This document shows positions 16,991-27,175 of a stretch of DNA of 37,257 nt, piece by piece. Every line of letters begins with the position of its first letter. Position 1 is the stretch's first letter. The notes under the pieces are model-generated. The model was not told the DNA's origin. It was given only the letters and a program-made list of their open reading frames with translations, and did not search any database. The DNA comes from an uncultured Oscillospiraceae bacterium (GTDB taxonomy: Bacteria; Bacillota; Clostridia; Oscillospirales; Oscillospiraceae): assembly GCA_900763685.1 (NCBI GenBank), contig CAAFLF010000039.1, positions 1 to 37,257 of the forward strand, read 5' to 3'. The translations under genes and the position numbers were made by a program.

Positions 16991-17022
16991 AAAGCGAGAC
17001 CGCTCACCGCGGTCTCGCTTTT
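16991..17022. terminator. bidirectional terminator shared by convergent genes
   Basis: AAAGCGAGACCGC (16991-17003) pairs with GCGGTCTCGCTTT (17009-17021) around a TCACC loop. Both strands end in T-runs. It lies just after the zinc-ribbon gene stop. The stop codon of the minus-strand gene (17004-17006) sits in the loop, so the last codons of that gene form one arm of its own terminator. Confidence 0.85.
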
Positions 17023-17945
17023 CCGTATTTCCGGGGGAAGAATTCCTTTCCCACCTGCCATAAATAGCGGTCCAGCTCCTTCCAGGAGAATTCGCCCAGT
17101 CCATACCAGTCCCGGAAGTCCCGCAGGACCTCCCGGAACCGCCGGTAGTCTTCCAGCGCTCCGTCCTGGAACGGGGCAAAGGCATCCCGGTCCCGGAAAT
17201 GGCGCAGCGTGACCGCCACATAGTGGTCGTAGATCGGGAATTCCTCCGGCCGGTGATGACTGCAATACTTGGTGGCGAAAGAGTAGAACCGCCGGACCGT
17301 CCCGTTGCCCTCCACCGTTTTCAGGTCCTCCACGAGACTAGGGTCCCCGGCTCGAAGCCGCTGGTCGATGTCCAGCGCCAGGATATGCTCCGCCACCGGA
17401 TAGAGGGAGAAGATATTGGTGCTGTAGAAGGCGTTCAGCGCGGCGGCCTTCAGCAGGATATCCCGGATGTCTTTGTTGCCGGGGGCATAGTCCTGAAACA
17501 GCCGGTCCAGCGCCTCCTCCTGGTTTCGATAGTTTTCCAATTCATGCCACTGGGAGAGATACCGTCGGACCTCCTCTGGGCAGGGCGTCGGAATGTCCGG
17601 TCCCTCCCGACGCTTCCGAGCGGCAGGGCGCTTCTCCGCCTCCTCTGAGAGGGCGAAGCGGCGGAACCGCCGGAGATGGGCCAGATACCCGTTGAGATTC
17701 CCCTCCACATTCCGGGACCCTCTCTGCCGCAGCGTCGCCCGCAGCCGCTCCGCGGCGACGGCCTCAAAATCCTCCCGCTCCAGCAGCGCCCAGAAATCCA
17801 GTGACGGATCATTCTTCCAGAGGTAAAAGGCGCTGTTCCGGGCTGCGGCGACGGTGCCCGCGGCAAAGCCCCGCTCCTCCAGATAGGCGCTGTAGACCCG
17901 CTGCAATTCCCGATAGGGCAGTTTCCGAAGCTCCTCCCGTGTCAT
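17004..17945 (-). CDS. conserved-looking protein of unknown function
   Basis: A 313-residue protein. The first roughly 110 residues (with YSAYLEERGFAAGTV, then a basic helix-rich stretch) resemble the helical core-binding domain at the N-terminus of tyrosine recombinases, but no recombinase catalytic domain with the R-H-R-Y set follows. The second half has a distinctive block, RRFYSFATKYCSHHRPEEFP then IYDHYV, which I have a sense of seeing in uncharacterised proteins but cannot assign. The start at 17945 (MTREELRKLPY) follows AAAGGATGG; a longer in-frame ATG lies at 17978, inside its own promoter region. No function is claimed. Confidence 0.75.
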   Translation of the reverse strand: MTREELRKLPYRELQRVYSAYLEERGFAAGTVAAARNSAFYLWKNDPSLDFWALLEREDFEAVAAERLRATLRQRGSRNVEGNLNGYLAHLRRFRRFALSEEAEKRPAARKRREGPDIPTPCPEEVRRYLSQWHELENYRNQEEALDRLFQDYAPGNKDIRDILLKAAALNAFYSTNIFSLYPVAEHILALDIDQRLRAGDPSLVEDLKTVEGNGTVRRFYSFATKYCSHHRPEEFPIYDHYVAVTLRHFRDRDAFAPFQDGALEDYRRFREVLRDFRDWYGLGEFSWKELDRYLWQVGKEFFPRKYGKARPR

Positions 17946-17968
17946 CCCATCCCATCCTTTCCGCTTCC

Positions 17969-17997
17969 ATTCTACCACAGCTTTCCGCCCATCGCAA
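17969..17997 (-). promoter_or_regulatory. promoter of the 17004-17945 gene
   Basis: Read on the minus strand: TTGCGA (17997-17992), 17 bases, TAGAAT (17974-17969). It lies 24 bases before the chosen start, which argues against the longer start at 17978. Confidence 0.6.
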
Positions 17998-19421: not shown

Positions 19422-20039
19422 ATGCGGAGTTTGTCCAAAATGCAGCAGAAGATCTATGACTACCTGGTGGCCTCCATCCAGGCCCAGGGCTACCCCCCCT
19501 CCGTGCGGGAGATCGGCGAGGCCGTGGGCCTGCGCTCCCCCTCCACGGTGCACTTCCACCTGAAGCACCTGGCGGAGATGGGCTACATCGAGATCGGCGC
19601 CGGCAAGGGCCGGGCCATCAGCCTGATCCAGCAGACCCCGGAAGCCGCCCCGCTGCCGGAGCGGGAGGAGCCGGACCGCGTCCCCATCGTGGGCAACGTG
19701 GCCGCCGGCACGCCTATCCTGGCCCAGGAGTGCGTCGAGGATTACCTGACCTTTGACACCGGCGGCCACAGCGGGGACTACTTCGCCCTCCGGGTCCGGG
19801 GCGACTCCATGATCAACGCCGGTATCCTCAACGGGGATCTGGTGGTGGTCCGTAGCCAGCCCACCGCTAACCAGGGCGAGATCGTGGTGGCCATGATCGA
19901 CGACGAGGCCACCGTCAAGCGCCTCTCCCGGAAGGGCGGTCACGTCTGGCTCCTGCCGGAGAACGAGGACTACGCCCCCATCGATGGCACCTATGCCCAG
20001 ATTTTAGGAAAAGTCGCCGCCGTCGTCCGCAGATACTGA
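19422..20039 (+). CDS. lexA: LexA repressor
   Basis: LexA represses SOS genes and cleaves itself when RecA is activated by DNA damage. The 205-residue product has an N-terminal winged helix with PPSVREIGEAVGLRSPSTVHFHL, a cleavage site AAGTP (A95-G96), the catalytic serine in RGDSM (S129) and lysine in ATVKR (K166). Start ATG at 19422 follows a purine-rich GGACGAGGAAG. It has its own LexA box and terminator, and faces the repeat array at 20750-22093. Confidence 0.97.
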   Translation: MRSLSKMQQKIYDYLVASIQAQGYPPSVREIGEAVGLRSPSTVHFHLKHLAEMGYIEIGAGKGRAISLIQQTPEAAPLPEREEPDRVPIVGNVAAGTPILAQECVEDYLTFDTGGHSGDYFALRVRGDSMINAGILNGDLVVVRSQPTANQGEIVVAMIDDEATVKRLSRKGGHVWLLPENEDYAPIDGTYAQILGKVAAVVRRY

Positions 20040-20043
20040 GAAG

Positions 20044-20079
20044 CGCCCCTCCGGCCCAGCCGCCGGAGGGGCGTTTTTT
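20044..20079 (+). terminator. terminator of lexA
   Basis: CGCCCCTCCGGC (20044-20055) pairs with GCCGGAGGGGCG (20062-20073) around six bases and is followed by TTTTTT (20074-20079), five bases after the lexA stop. Confidence 0.95.
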
Positions 20080-20560
20080 CGCTCGGGCCGGAGACGCCCT
20101 GGAAATGGGGAAAGATGGAAAACGGGGGAAGCGCCTGAAAGATTTTCTTTCGGGGCTTTGCACGCTTTCGCACAAAAAACGCCCCGGTTTCACCCGGCAG
20201 GTAAAGGGGCAAAATCGACGGGAAAGGCAGCCGCCCGAAGGTCTTCCCCCGGAGTTCAGGCCCGGGCCCGCTTCCATCGGAAGGGGGCCTATCCGCCGTC
20301 CCCGGGCGGGGAAGACAGGAAATGGGAATAAAACCCATTGAAAAGGCGGCGATCCTCCCCTCCGGGAGGCGGGGAGGATCGCCCCGCTCTTTCCCCGCCG
20401 GTTTTGCCAAGGCTTGGCCGCTATTTTCCGGGAATCAACTGTTCGCTGAGAAAATCCTCCACCAATTCTGCCGCCATTCGCTTCCGTTCCCCGCGAAAGC
20501 CTGTCATAATGATCCCTGAAGCGTCGGGCGGCAGCCGCCGGTCCTAGGCGCCGGATTCTC
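20080..20560. other. gene-free region with several inverted repeats
   Basis: No ORF here resembles a known protein; the open frames are a by-product of GC richness. Inverted repeats are dense: CGGGGC/GCCCCG (20151-20156/20181-20186), GTCTTCCCC/GGGGAAGAC (20241-20249/20308-20316), CTTCC/GGAAG within 20271-20283, and a perfect 13-bp pair GGCGATCCTCCCC/GGGGAGGATCGCC (20348-20360/20371-20383). The last is followed on the minus strand by GCCTTTT, so it could end minus-strand transcription. Confidence 0.5.
20348..20383 (-). terminator. strong inverted repeat, possible minus-strand terminator
   Basis: A perfect 13-bp stem, 20348-20360 with 20371-20383, around a ten-base loop that itself contains CTCCGGGAG. 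On the minus strand it continues GCC then TTTT (20344-20341), a modest U-tract. No gene directly upstream on that strand is evident except antisense reading through the repeat array, so its partner transcript is unknown. Confidence 0.4.
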
Positions 20561-20564
20561 GCTC

Positions 20565-20593
20565 TTGCGGGTTTCCCCCAGGCCGGGTATAAT
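20565..20593 (+). promoter_or_regulatory. promoter reading into the repeat array
   Basis: TTGCGG (20565-20570), 17 bases, TATAAT (20588-20593). The consensus -10 box with ideal spacing is one of the best promoters in the window, yet no protein gene follows on this strand. A transcript would begin near 20600 and run through an AT-richer stretch into the 42-base repeats. Confidence 0.55.
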
Positions 20594-20749
20594 AGAAATA
20601 GCCCCAAAAACCGAATACAAAACGCAATTCAGAAAGAAAATATTACAGTTAGGATAGGATTTTCGGCATAAAAGCCGCCGAACCCGCAAGGCCTCGCTCC
20701 CCAAAAGCCAACGCCGCCGCCCTTTGGCGGGGCAAACCCGTCCTTCCAG

Positions 20750-22093
20750 CGGCCTTTCCCCATGCCCAAAACGGCGGCGATTTCCCAAAAGTGGGGCCGA
20801 TTTCCCAGCGAAAGGGAGGGATCCCCTCAAAAGTGGGTCCAAACTCCCCTCAAAAACGGGAAAGCTTCCGCAAAGTGGGATCTGCCGCCCCATAGAGCGC
20901 CCCGTTCCACTTGCGAGAGACTTTTTCACCCGTTTACGGGGGGATCGCCCATCCTCAGCCCTCCGCCATACCCCAAAGCGGCGGCGATTCTCCCGCGTAG
21001 ACGCCGCTTTTCGGAAAAGTGGGGTCGCTTACCTAGAAATCGCTGATTCTTCAAGTAAAGTGGGGATTGATTGCGTAATGTTAGCGAGATTCACCCGTCA
21101 AGTGGGGGGAATGCCTCCTGTTTGGGAGGACGATTTCCCTCCCGGGAGCGGCCGTTCCCGCACTCTCAGATACGCCGCGAAGTGGGAGCGTCATCTTGCG
21201 AAATCGGTTATTTTCCGGTGAAAGTGGGATCGATCGTCCGAAAGAATAGTGACCTTCCCGCAAAAGTGGGGATTACTTGTCTGCGCTGGGCGGGGTTCGT
21301 CCGGTGCGTGAGAGCTGTTTTCTATTTGAGAGGATGACTTCCCTCCGGGAGCGGTCACTCTCAAGTTCCCAGCCGCGCCACCGGGGTGGGGCTGATCGAC
21401 TCGGAAAAGCGCGGGTTCTCCCACAAAAGTGGGGGGGCGATTCATCGCCGGAAACACCGTTTCCCCACAAAAGTGGGGGAGGTCCGCTCTTGGGAGCGCT
21501 GGTTTTGCGCAAAAGTGGGGTCGGAGTGTCTGAGGGAACGTCTATTTTTCGATTGAAGTGGGAGCGGATCTCCGGAGGAATGCTGTTTTTCCTGGCCGTG
21601 TGGGGCTTGCTGGCCGGAATAGCGTCGGATTCGGCTGTTGAGTGGGAATTTTGTCCCATCGCGCGGTGGGCGCGCTTGGCGGGGTCTGAGTGCGGAAACG
21701 GGCTTAGTGGGGGCGGATGCGCTTTTTAAGCGGGGAAGCTCGGATGGAGTGGGGGAGAGCATCCATCGCGGAGCCGGGTTTTGCCCGGCAAGTGGGGAAG
21801 GATTCCTTTTTGGCGGCGGATAGTTTTCGTATGGGATCGGCCCGAGGGAGCGGCGAATCCGCCGGAGTGGGGCTGACGCGGACTTGGAGCGGCGCGGTTT
21901 CCTGCCGGAGTGGGGCTGGCGCGGCCTTGGAGCGGCGCGGTTTTAGAGCGGAGTGGGTTTTCGCTTGTGTGGGATCGGCCGGTCTTGGGAGCAGTGCGTC
22001 TGGAAAAGTGGGGGTTTGAGAGCTGCTTGGAAGGCAATTTCCTGTGCCGAGTGGGGACAACTGTGCGACTGGGTGGAGAATTTCGCTGTCAGG
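20750..22093. repeat. degenerate 42-43-base tandem repeat array, core AAGTGGGG
   Basis: About 30 units in register. The first G of GTGGG falls at 20791, 20833, 20875, 21019, 21060, 21102, 21182, 21224, 21266, 21386, 21429, 21473, 21515, 21558, 21600, 21642, 21707, 21749, 21792, 21867, 21910, 21953, 22008 and 22051. Most steps are 41-44; several larger gaps are near multiples of about 40-42 with degenerate cores between. Each unit ends in a T-rich then C-rich stretch such as GATTTCCC or GTTTCCCC just before the next core, so neighbouring units can form hairpins, e.g. CCCCAC-AAAA-GTGGGG (21463-21478) and CCCAC-AAAA-GTGGG (21420-21433). Unit interiors are not conserved. One-base shifts in period move the core through reading frames (KSG, KVG, KWG), so conservation is at the nucleotide level and not of one protein. 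Confidence 0.8.
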
Positions 22094-22733
22094 TAGGGGA
22101 AGCGCCGTCGGAGGGGCCATCCTCCTCCCAGGCGGGGTCGCCGGGAATGAGGCGCATGACGGAGACCTCGTAGGCGGTGCGCTGCTCGGGGCCGGTCTCC
22201 AGGCGCTTGGTGTAGAGCCGGCTCTGGATCCGGCCCTCCAGGGCCAGGATGTCGCCGGTGCGGCGCTGGCTCAGGTCCGAGGCCAGCTGGCCCCAGGCGA
22301 TGAGGGGCAGGTAGTCCGCCCGGCCGTAACGCCGGGAGACCGCCAGCATGAGATCGCAGATGCTCCGCCCCAGGGGCGTGCGGCGGTAAGTCGGGTCCTT
22401 GCAGAGGACGCCCTGGAGCAGGATGCGGTTGCGGTTCTCTCCGGTGGGAGGCGAGAGGGCCAGGGCGTGGGTGCTGAGGACCAGGCGGCTCCCCTGGCCG
22501 CCGCGGTTATTGTAGGAGCGGAGCTGGCCCTGGAGGCGGAGCCGCTCCCCGGGGACGGCGGCGCTTCGCAGCTCCTCCGGCAGGAGGAGGGGCAGGAGGT
22601 CGGCCTGGCCGGAGAGGCGGGGCACCTCCAGCAGGCAGCGGTAAAAGGGCTTGCCGTGGTTTTCATGGGAATAGGCGGGCGGGGTCTGGACCAGACCCTC
22701 CAGCTCCGCTTCGTTGCGGTGGATGTCATTCAT
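22089..22733 (-). CDS. single-stranded DNA-binding-like protein with two OB folds
   Basis: A 214-residue protein with two SSB-like OB-fold halves. The N-terminal half (about 1-95) is divergent, with YSHENHGKPFYRCLLEVPRLSG. The C-terminal half (about 100-200) is closer to SSB, with GVLCKDPTYRRTPLGRSICDLMLAVSRRYGRADYLPLIAWGQLA and a final strand YEVSVMRLIPG. Clostridia often carry such two-domain SSB relatives besides the main ssb gene. The acidic D-D-I-P-F tail of true SSB is absent. GAGGTG upstream (22752-22744 region, minus strand) supports the start. Its 3' end overlaps the last unit of the repeat array. Confidence 0.75.
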   Translation of the reverse strand: MNDIHRNEAELEGLVQTPPAYSHENHGKPFYRCLLEVPRLSGQADLLPLLLPEELRSAAVPGERLRLQGQLRSYNNRGGQGSRLVLSTHALALSPPTGENRNRILLQGVLCKDPTYRRTPLGRSICDLMLAVSRRYGRADYLPLIAWGQLASDLSQRRTGDILALEGRIQSRLYTKRLETGPEQRTAYEVSVMRLIPGDPAWEEDGPSDGASPT

Positions 22734-22828
22734 GGCGCTACACCTCGTTCGCAGGATGGTAGAGCCTATGAACGGCCCGTCCGCGATAGAACAAATCTCT
22801 TCCGCCGCGGGCGGGAAAGGAGCGAACG

Positions 22829-24007
22829 ATGGCCAATATTCTGGATTATCTCAACTGGCGGGGGGACCTGACCCTGGCCCAGTCCCCCTTCAACGAGGTG
22901 GACAACCTGATCCTGGCGGAGCTCTCCTTCGTGAACTTCACGGGGATCGTGCCGGGACCCGGAGAGGGGGAGGGCGTGCCGCTCCATGCGGCGGCGGAGG
23001 CCTTCTTCCGGAGCCATGAGGGCGGGGACATGGGCATGGGCGTGCTGGTGCCGGACGAGATCCCGACGCTGCTGAGAAAGATGGCGGAGTGCCCCCGCTT
23101 CCGAGAGATGAAGGTCAACTGCTTCTGCGACCACCTGGACGTGCGGAAGGCGGAGCAGTTCGCCGCCGTGACGGTCGAGCTGGGGGACGGCAGTATCTAC
23201 CTCTCCTTCCGGGGGACGGACGACACCATCGCCGGGTGGAAGGAGGACTTCCTCCTGGGCTGCCAGCCAGAGGTCCCCGCCCAGAAGAAGGCGGTGGCGT
23301 ATGTGAAGGCCGTGGCGGCGCAGTATCCCCGGCGGAAGCTGATGCTGGGCGGCCACTCCAAGGGCGGGAATCTCGCCGTTTACGGCGGCATCTTCGTGCC
23401 CCTGGCCATCCAGCGGCGGATCAGCGCCGTGTGGAGCAACGACGGGCCCGGCTTCTACGGCGCGGTGCTGGAGACCCCCCAGCACGCCCGGCTGGAGGGC
23501 CGCGTCCACAGCATCGTGCCGAAATCCTCCGTGGTGGGGATGCTCTTAGAGCACGAGGAGAGCTACACCGTGGTGGACAGCGACCAGGTGGGGCTTTGGC
23601 AGCACGACGGCTTTTCCTGGCAGGTGCTGGGGACGGGCTTTGTGACGCTGCGGGAAGTTTCCCGCCAGGGGCGGCGGAACGACCTCGCGTTGAAGGAATG
23701 GGTCCGGCGGCTGCCGGTGGACCAGCGGGAGAAGTTCGTGGACGGCCTTTTCGAGGTGCTGACGGCCTCCGGCGCCACCACCCTGACGGATCTGAAGGAG
23801 GACGGCTTCCGGGCGGCGGGGGCCATGGTCCGGGCCATGAAGGACATGGAGAAGGACACGAGGGACGCCCTCTTCAACGCCATCGCGACCCTCTTCCGCA
23901 GCAACATCCAGGCGGCGGTGGAGGAGGCCCGGGAGGAGGTCCGGGGCGACGGCAGCCCCCTGCGCAAGCTGACGGAACTGACGGAAAAGATCGTCGGGAA
24001 GGAATAA
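22829..24007 (+). CDS. Mbeg1-like (DUF2974) alpha/beta hydrolase
   Basis: A 392-residue protein with the common clostridial start NILDYLNWRGDLTLAQSPFNEVDNLILA and a lipase-like nucleophile elbow GGHSKGGN with S177, matching the DUF2974/Mbeg1-like hydrolase family. A segment LSFRGTDDTIAGWKEDF resembles the oxyanion-hole region of class 3 lipases. No signal peptide is visible, so it is likely cytoplasmic. Substrate unknown. AAAGGAG at 22817-22823 supports the start. The next gene begins 18 bases downstream, so the two are probably co-transcribed. Confidence 0.85.
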   Translation: MANILDYLNWRGDLTLAQSPFNEVDNLILAELSFVNFTGIVPGPGEGEGVPLHAAAEAFFRSHEGGDMGMGVLVPDEIPTLLRKMAECPRFREMKVNCFCDHLDVRKAEQFAAVTVELGDGSIYLSFRGTDDTIAGWKEDFLLGCQPEVPAQKKAVAYVKAVAAQYPRRKLMLGGHSKGGNLAVYGGIFVPLAIQRRISAVWSNDGPGFYGAVLETPQHARLEGRVHSIVPKSSVVGMLLEHEESYTVVDSDQVGLWQHDGFSWQVLGTGFVTLREVSRQGRRNDLALKEWVRRLPVDQREKFVDGLFEVLTASGATTLTDLKEDGFRAAGAMVRAMKDMEKDTRDALFNAIATLFRSNIQAAVEEAREEVRGDGSPLRKLTELTEKIVGKE

Positions 24008-26725: not shown

Positions 26726-27175
26726 TTATTTTACCCCTTGCATATCTCCATATTTATCTTTCAGACTTTCTATTCCGCTAATTACAGAGAGGAAACATGA
26801 TTGATCTGTATCCATTTCAAAAGAGAGAACATTATTAATGTCATGCCTTTCCTGAAATTTACCCTTTACCGTTGCATGTCCAGAAGAGCCCATTGTTACG
26901 GTAAATATTAAATCGTTTTCTAAGAGCAGTGCATACTTTGCTTCTCCTTCCAATCTTTCGTAGCATTCCTTTAATTGATTCGAAAAACTATACAAAGCAC
27001 CTGTTGCTGAATAGTATCTATCAAATTTCGCCTTATAACAGCCAACATCAATTTCCAATGAGCAAATTATATCGTAGCCACCTTCATAGCTTGTTGAATC
27101 AGGAAATCCTATGACTTCTTTTAATTTCAGTGCTATTTTTTCTCCATCATAGCCGTTAAAAGTAAATATCTCCAT
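26726..27175 (-). CDS. AT-rich orphan gene, possible WapI-type immunity protein
   Basis: A 149-residue acidic, soluble protein with no signal or membrane segment. A block in the second half (GHATVKGKFQERHDINNVLSFEMDTDQSCF and a final FLSVISGIESL) resembles small immunity proteins of the WapI/polymorphic-toxin type; this is recalled similarity, not a search result. The gene is strongly AT-rich with A/T-ending codons, unlike every neighbour, and its ribosome binding site is weak. No toxin gene is beside it. It is most simply read as a recently acquired orphan immunity gene. Confidence 0.6.
   Translation of the reverse strand: MEIFTFNGYDGEKIALKLKEVIGFPDSTSYEGGYDIICSLEIDVGCYKAKFDRYYSATGALYSFSNQLKECYERLEGEAKYALLLENDLIFTVTMGSSGHATVKGKFQERHDINNVLSFEMDTDQSCFLSVISGIESLKDKYGDMQGVK

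Follow-up and report, generated by a model that had tools for sequence, protein, structure and literature searches.

Introduction

In datA-type titration loci and in iteron arrays, clustered binding sites serve to titrate a protein or to assemble it. The repeat array described in this work may be a cluster of that general sort, but it differs from datA loci and iterons in the core, the spacing and the number of its sites, and it is not known to have an initiator protein.

Two other systems come closer in detail. In the pac regions of the phages SPP1 and SF6, direct repeats lie at the start of the gene of the small terminase, a ring protein, and phased AT/GC runs were proposed to favour wrapping of the DNA (PMC4737164). 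Our comparison with pac is one of descriptions: in that article it contains three sets of direct repeats, not a 42-bp array. The second system is the operator of MraZ. The MraZ box of Mollicutes was given as (AAAGTGKN3)3 (PMC5282649), and MraZ boxes were also described as AAAGTG[T/G] repeats (PMC8475190). The operator shares with the array the AAAGTGG core, helical phasing and a ring-shaped protein partner (an octamer), the last of which would be a likeness only if such a protein binds the array. It differs from the array in having a 10-bp period and lying in a promoter, whereas the repeats studied here follow each other at about 42 bp between convergent genes.

The array is located in a 37,257-nucleotide stretch of DNA from an uncultured Oscillospiraceae bacterium, the whole of which was analysed and is called here the window. 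A first-pass annotation, made from the sequence alone, had stated that no described element with this core and period was known to it. This statement holds in part. The core is that of the MraZ box, and core and period recur together beside phage terminase genes; on the other hand, we found no description of these phage clusters. AAAGTGGGG was absent from the open-access literature on terminases, pac and cos among the matches listed, and neither a chromosomal array of such repeats nor the repeat itself was described there, again among the matches listed. We consider it most probable, with a probability of roughly 35%, that the locus is a phased array of binding sites of the phage-packaging (cos/pac-like) type, which may serve as a sponge.

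Results and discussion

Structure of the array

The array extends from about 20768 to about 22070, is non-coding and lies in chromosomal DNA (feature limits 20765-22093, plus strand). Autocorrelation of 20750-22093 gave peaks at lags 42 (z 8.7) and 43 (z 8.0), further peaks at 20, 21, 41, 84 and 85, and no peak at 126-128; the maximum over lags 15-129 was reached by none of 500 dinucleotide shuffles, thus the 42-43-base periodicity reported by the first-pass annotation is real. The array contains 26 GTGGG, 22 AGTGGG, 15 AAGTGGG, 10 AAGTGGGG and 8 AAAGTGGGG. For 14 of the 22 AGTGGG another copy follows at a distance of 41-44 bases (the shuffled sequences yielded at most 0), and 18 of the 25 steps between successive GTGGG measure 41-44 bases. 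The statement that about 30 units keep AAGTGGGG was too strong, as only 10 copies are exact. The strand bias is extreme: in the rest of the 37-kb window AGTGGG occurs twice on the plus strand and not once on the minus strand.

We count about 23 strong AAAGTGGGG-type sites, all in one orientation and mostly four helical turns apart. Between many of them stand weaker sites resembling GAGCGG or AAAGCGG, so that sites occur about every 21 bp and the basic beat appears to be about 21 bases, i.e. two helical turns; the test of this strong/weak alternation by 21-bp segmentation is partly circular, because the strong cores were already known to be 42 apart. The alternation slips in phase between 20875 and 21019, and again around 21642-21707. 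The first block (20788-20881, plus strand, as all blocks) has strong cores at 20791, 20833 and 20875 with AAAACGG or AAAGGG at the half-steps, and is followed by the first slip. The second block (21016-21272) has strong cores at 21019, 21060, 21102, 21182, 21224 and 21266. The third (21383-21648) includes the longest unbroken run of GTGGG, from 21386 to 21642 in steps of 42-44. Further on lie two adjoining 43-bp units (21861-21943, plus strand) with 95% matches by TRF, a recent tandem duplication, and finally the last two strong cores, at 22008 and 22051 (22005-22055, plus strand), some 35 bp short of where the ssb-like gene ends. When the array was searched with TRF, only this 43-bp pair (in two rows), an adjoining stretch of period 16 and a stretch of period 20 (20765-20807) were detected.

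The view that the region is free of genes holds in the sense that the cores fall in all three reading frames (8/8/6) and each of the six frames contains 5-10 stops. A degenerate gene for a repetitive protein, in which 42 bases would represent 14 codons, is for these reasons extremely improbable, even if a 165-aa open reading frame (20724-21221) recurs at full length with 96% identity in another assembly, since copies of the array in other assemblies shift frame within it. A continuous repetitive protein gene can be ruled out on the same grounds of frames, stops and frame shifts. The protein search with the spurious minus-strand ORF returned no candidate.

An array of RNA hairpins had been another suggestion, with CCCCAC-AAAA-GTGGGG pairing at the ends of adjacent units. 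The CCCAC-AAAA-GTGGG hairpin is present at 2 of the 26 cores, and a possible arm of any kind precedes 5 of 26, which gives the suggested pairing little support. Folding of eight 300-nt windows, four per strand, gave uneven z-scores between -3.7 and +0.4: two of the four plus-strand windows (-2.4 and -3.7) and one of the four on the minus strand (-3.0) would agree with a multi-hairpin non-coding RNA, the other five (-1.5 to +0.4) would not. Terminator-like stems occur at single places (6 in 19900-22900 compared with 4.8 in shuffles). The promoter scan found no promoter above threshold in 19900-22900, and Rfam, at gathering scores, had no match in the array, its only match in the window being the S10 leader at the window start. 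With arms at so few cores and such uneven folding, we regard an RNA of this kind as very improbable. Taken as a whole, the first-pass account was partly confirmed: the periodicity is there, while the core is looser than it had stated and hairpin arms are confined to few cores.

Genomic context and occurrence in relatives

The window is a piece of a bacterial chromosome. Its genes, recognized by eye and by Pfam, include those of the S10 ribosomal operon, then rpoA and rplQ, one for a polysaccharide deacetylase, and lexA; beyond the array come genes resembling ssb and Mbeg1. The left neighbour, lexA (19422-20039, plus strand; Pfam LexA_DNA_bind and Peptidase_S24), and the right neighbour, the ssb-like gene (22089-22733, minus strand; Pfam SSB), both point at the array. 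Since it is flanked by convergent genes, the array is not an ordinary promoter operator. Neither the eight window proteins scanned with Pfam nor the gene list inspected by eye included a terminase or a phage structural family. Two other genes of the window may be mentioned here: a member of the WapI-like immunity protein family is encoded at 26733-27175 (minus strand, Pfam), and a 324-aa protein without a Pfam match at E 0.001 at 17004-17978 (minus strand), between rplQ and the deacetylase gene.

The closest LexA matches, among the best 80 of 160 relatives, came from Oscillibacter and other Oscillospiraceae and were at most 78% identical, thus the species of the window seems to be absent from the genomes scanned. 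None of the 80 lexA loci carries an array beside lexA, although some of the contigs concerned stop a short way past this gene. The triple-core pattern was found in 0 of 86 genomes of the genus Oscillibacter, and BLAST of the array against these 86 genomes gave nothing better than a 29-base match (E 0.002), so no phage-host pairing can be drawn. In the order the pattern occurred in 10 of 394 genomes, by eye as coding-type repeats with the exception of genome G780, and in the phylum in 2 of 299, both of them 40-bp satellites. The combined window pattern had 0 matches in the pattern scan, and BLAST found no match either for the array in phages and plasmids or for the left flank (20040-20770) in phages. 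The search of related genomes, which the first-pass annotation had proposed, accordingly revealed no such array in the lexA loci or in the 86 genomes of the genus; core and spacing were found together again in phage contigs.

The order rpoA-rplQ-deacetylase-lexA is present at 5 of the 80 lexA loci, and deacetylase-lexA at five more. Of 14 relatives, 13 have the ssb-like gene (57-63% identity) and the remaining one has just a weak ssb match, but the gene stands near lexA at 0 of 80 loci (E 1e-8). As the left neighbours have the order of the relatives, whose lexA loci lack the ssb-like gene, the array is located at a break in gene order (20040-22090).

Probable conservation of the cores and the satellite alternative

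The array could be an old minisatellite, produced by slippage, possibly from the packaging site of a prophage, that is now decaying without a present function. We think this is almost as probable as the packaging-type binding array. It would account for the 95% identical unit pair at 21861-21943, for the location of the array where the gene order breaks and for its absence from the relatives searched. Neighbouring spacers are, moreover, more alike (their mean score falls from -2.8 at separation 1 to -5.4 at separations of at least 5, with -6.9 when shuffled), although these scores, and the identities given below, stem from a 42-bp segmentation whose path ran partly on the half-step. Satellites with similar words exist elsewhere: a Bacillota genome (G1024) has a 27-copy, 40-bp repeat with AAAAGTGGG cores, and G780, of the same order as the window, has 3.9 copies of a 42-bp repeat with AGTGGGG. 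Like the array, the G1024 repeat consists of tandem G-rich units with AAAAGTGGG, but there the match is 92% over the whole unit, while in the array the cores alone have lasted. The first unit of the G1024 repeat agrees weakly with the phage spacer profile (z 1.2, n=1).

As to their own structure, the G1024 repeat (L321:3150-4219) is a young satellite whose unit is composed of two halves of 20 bp each, with AAAAAGTGGG and AAAACGAGTGGG, and the G780 repeat (L127:1471-1635) shows 95% matches, has AGTGGGG on both strands and overlaps a 125-aa ORF.

Identity of the spacers within the array is near random (0.28-0.30, with 0.26 expected), while GTGGG reaches 0.69, on a segmentation path that ran partly on the half-step; position counts chosen by the core look like this contrast. 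A protein search with the spurious ORF at 20724-21218 retrieved one 96% identical copy from another assembly; with that at 21277-21726, nine incomplete copies were retrieved, which covered 45-88% of the query at 79-99% identity and lay in different frames. In the locally well aligned stretches the residues differed in 134 of 1268 spacer comparisons, 6 of 99 edge comparisons and 4 of 137 core comparisons; for core versus spacer Fisher's test gave p 0.002, the comparisons being not independent. Counted by codon sites, 3 of 50 core sites and 62 of 484 spacer sites were changed, which was not significant (p 0.25) before inspection. Inspection showed that no change within GTGGG is needed at any of the three core sites, two being explained by the base that precedes GTGGG and one lying at a shifted frame, which leaves 0 of 50 (p 0.002). 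An unfiltered comparison, mixing shifted frames, gave mismatches at 93 of 320 core and 1077 of 2637 spacer residues, or 34 of 96 and 371 of 827 sites (p 0.08). All these comparisons were made with protein letters, in which silent changes are not seen.

From these sequence comparisons we conclude with moderate confidence that the cores are kept relative to the spacers in diverged copies. A neutral satellite should lose cores and spacers together. Furthermore, as a satellite the array would share core and spacing with the phage repeats by coincidence, unless it was seeded from a phage cluster. The suggestion of a decayed satellite thus agrees with the 95% unit pair and with the existence of a young 27-copy satellite elsewhere, and disagrees with the cores outlasting the spacers.

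Repeats with the same core and spacing in phage contigs

IMG/VR was searched with the pattern AAAGTGGGGN{31,36}AAAGTGGGG, whose spacing range had been set from the period of the window. Pairs of AAAGTGGGG 40-45 apart were found in 44 contigs, 33 of which had them at 41-43 and outside long ORFs (160 codons or more in these counts). The reversed motif, used as a control, equalled the true motif in the total number of contigs (45) but occurred at other spacings and mostly within ORFs: 23 were at spacing 45, 11 were outside long ORFs and 3 of these 11 were at 41-43. In an open-range scan, which covered spacings of 21-51, 100 contigs matched. Pairs outside long ORFs numbered 11, 12 and 12 at spacings 41, 42 and 43, and 0-6 at any other spacing between 21 and 51; these counts come from 88 of the 100 contigs, spacings besides 40-45 being under-sampled by about 12 contigs of 56. 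A scan for three cores matched 54 contigs, with many triples stepping 42 and 43, and also with coding repeats. We think that the agreement in core plus spacing between the array and the phage packaging regions is unlikely to be due to chance, because the phage peak recurs in the open-range scan.

The phage clusters hold 2-6 cores, have a single orientation per cluster and lie mostly outside long ORFs. Like the array, they thus combine the AAAGTGGGG core with a spacing of 41-43 bp outside ORFs; unlike it, they are short and lie by packaging genes, whereas the array has about 23 strong cores beside lexA and no phage genes were seen in its window.

The neighbours of the phage clusters were surveyed in 29 contigs (81 ORFs of at least 130 aa within 2 kb; 13 of the 44 contigs were omitted as coding or near-duplicate). 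Nine terminase families were among the 25 Pfam families listed of 62: Terminase_6C (4), Terminase_6N (3), GpA_ATPase (2), Terminase_3 (2), GpA_nuclease (2), TerL_nuclease (2), TerL_ATPase (2), Sf6_terminase (1) and Terminase_2 (1). For comparison, ORFs lying over 3 kb from the repeats were sampled at random (81 of 128), and they had no terminase among the 25 Pfam families listed of 74. Chosen neighbours in 28 contigs were then tested with PHROGs: 19 contigs had a terminase subunit at most 1 kb away from the repeats, and in the other 9 no terminase was found next to them; one contig besides the 19 showed portal and scaffold only. The proportion 19/28 is not a blind rate, because contigs and neighbours were chosen by position, some of the terminases had already been seen by eye, and in 6 of the 28 the repeat lay inside a stop-to-stop frame of 171-459 codons. 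A bacterial counterpart was found in one of 400 genomes of the family, G178, which is among the 21 with a 41-45 pair: here a smaller array with the same core directly follows a gene that resembles those of terminases (matches to PHROG terminase at E 1e-13 and 2e-12). We infer from their position that the phage clusters are most simply recognition elements for the initiation of packaging, of the cos or pac type.

There is a second spacing class, in which AAAGTGGGG pairs are 30 bp apart with a TATAT element between them (contigs L187, L220, L230, L240 and L245); in L220, L230 and L245 the pair sits between an HNH endonuclease gene and the genes of the terminase small and large subunits.

The spacers of array and phage repeats were compared as well. 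A profile built from 37 phage spacers with the core masked scored z 4.7 (shuffle) and 4.1 (rotation) on 13 window spacers, and the reverse test, the window profile on phage spacers, gave z 6.3 and 5.8; the core-masked version replaced a profile that included core letters (z 6.6). Addition of a second phage set of 42 spacers gave z 4.35 on the window, and three usable spacers of G178 gave z 5.1. Random 42-mers of the window had a mean z of 0.07 (sd 1.02), with 3.67 as the largest of 300 sets. The phage profile also fits eight related pairs from the promoters of G5-3D-domain genes (z 4.8), six other pairs of the family (z 3.0) and even the window array itself when its frame is moved by 12 or 21 bp (z 4.4 and 3.7), therefore the likeness beyond core and spacing is mainly an AT/GC phasing of about 10.5 bases. 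Such phasing would be expected for DNA bent around a protein. Window and phage units also share a GC box and a T-tract before the next core.

These results suggest how the array might work. We propose that it is a platform for a ring-forming, DNA-wrapping protein of the phage-packaging type, and that the clusters beside phage terminase genes are built from the same sort of unit, with the core, the 42±1 spacing, a GC box and a T-tract. Of the functions put forward in the first-pass annotation the phased protein-binding array fits best, as the cores lie on one face of the DNA, vary least and recur in phages, from which binding of a protein may be surmised. Located in the chromosome, away from promoters and phage genes, the array could soak up a packaging protein of phages, as a sponge or decoy. 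In its most specific form, a chromosomal decoy of about two dozen packaging-initiation sites would rob incoming or induced phages that use AAAGTGGGG at 42 bp of their packaging protein, or would cause host DNA to be packaged from this locus; this we find unlikely. A decoy, a hub for the packaging of host DNA, an array for a host protein and a relic of slippage cannot be told apart from sequence. The packaging interpretation must also face the difference in core number, about 23 in the array against 2-6 in the phage clusters, and the variety of families among the neighbouring terminases, which would not be expected if they all recognized a single core.

If the link to phage packaging holds, one short DNA word at a spacing of four helical turns marks packaging regions across terminase families, and a bacterium bears a several-fold longer array of this phage signal in its core genome. 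It could then be tested what reads the signal across the terminase families, and whether plain DNA can serve as a decoy or transduction hub. A true decoy would be an anti-phage device made of DNA only, without a protein, or else a built-in hub of transduction. Even without a decoy, the terminase-side repeat could help to locate packaging sites in phage genomes.

Relation to MraZ boxes and other host operators

It is also conceivable that MraZ, or a similar ring-forming host protein, binds the cores, in which case the array might titrate a regulator or organize the nucleoid. The core of the array equals the MraZ box core AAAGTG(G/T), and 42 is four times 10.5. Of 35 mraZ loci processed, 15 were set aside because the frames read showed no N-terminal motif, and another because of its short length, which left 19 usable upstream regions, 17 from the genus Oscillibacter and two from other genomes of the family. 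The motif [AG]GTGGG, typically as GTGGGGAAAAGTGGG, was present in 18 of the 19 (17 of 17 in Oscillibacter, the sole exception being from Pseudoflavonifractor), compared with 14% of 2553 background windows. In two further mraZ promoters (L100 and L102) AAAGTGGG boxes stand 41 bp apart, and a AAAGTGGG pair at 42-43 bp is conserved at nine loci in the promoters of genes with G5 and 3D domains.

Against a host regulator of the MraZ type speaks that MraZ boxes repeat every 10 bp, whereas the cores of the array are single, about 42 bp apart and, by position counts, without AAAGTGG at +10. The array, moreover, lies in a convergent intergenic region and not in front of mraZ or at any other promoter; the phage clusters adjoin terminase genes, and the mraZ gene of the window's species was not seen. 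We therefore judge binding by MraZ or a relative to be unlikely, and prefer the phage-packaging type of array as the interpretation of the locus.

In the 400 genomes of the family there were 39 AAAGTGGG pairs in 34 genomes, 22 of them at 41-44, many being copies of one promoter; the search at 41-45 gave 22 pairs for the motif and 11 for the reversed control, a difference that alone proves little. The conserved pair at the G5-3D-domain genes, which we take to be rpf/YabE-like, belongs to nine loci in Oscillospiraceae genomes (L081-L083 and L104-L109, at about position 1501-1551), and the G5 and 3D domains were checked in 3 of the 9. In these promoters one AAAGTGGG comes right after the TTGACA box and the second lies 42-43 bp upstream, with an unconserved spacer between them. 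To judge from this layout, the pair is likely a two-site operator of some regulator. An arrangement closer to that of an MraZ operator was noticed in the viral contig L217, where four AAGTGGG-type boxes stand 10 bp apart (335-373).
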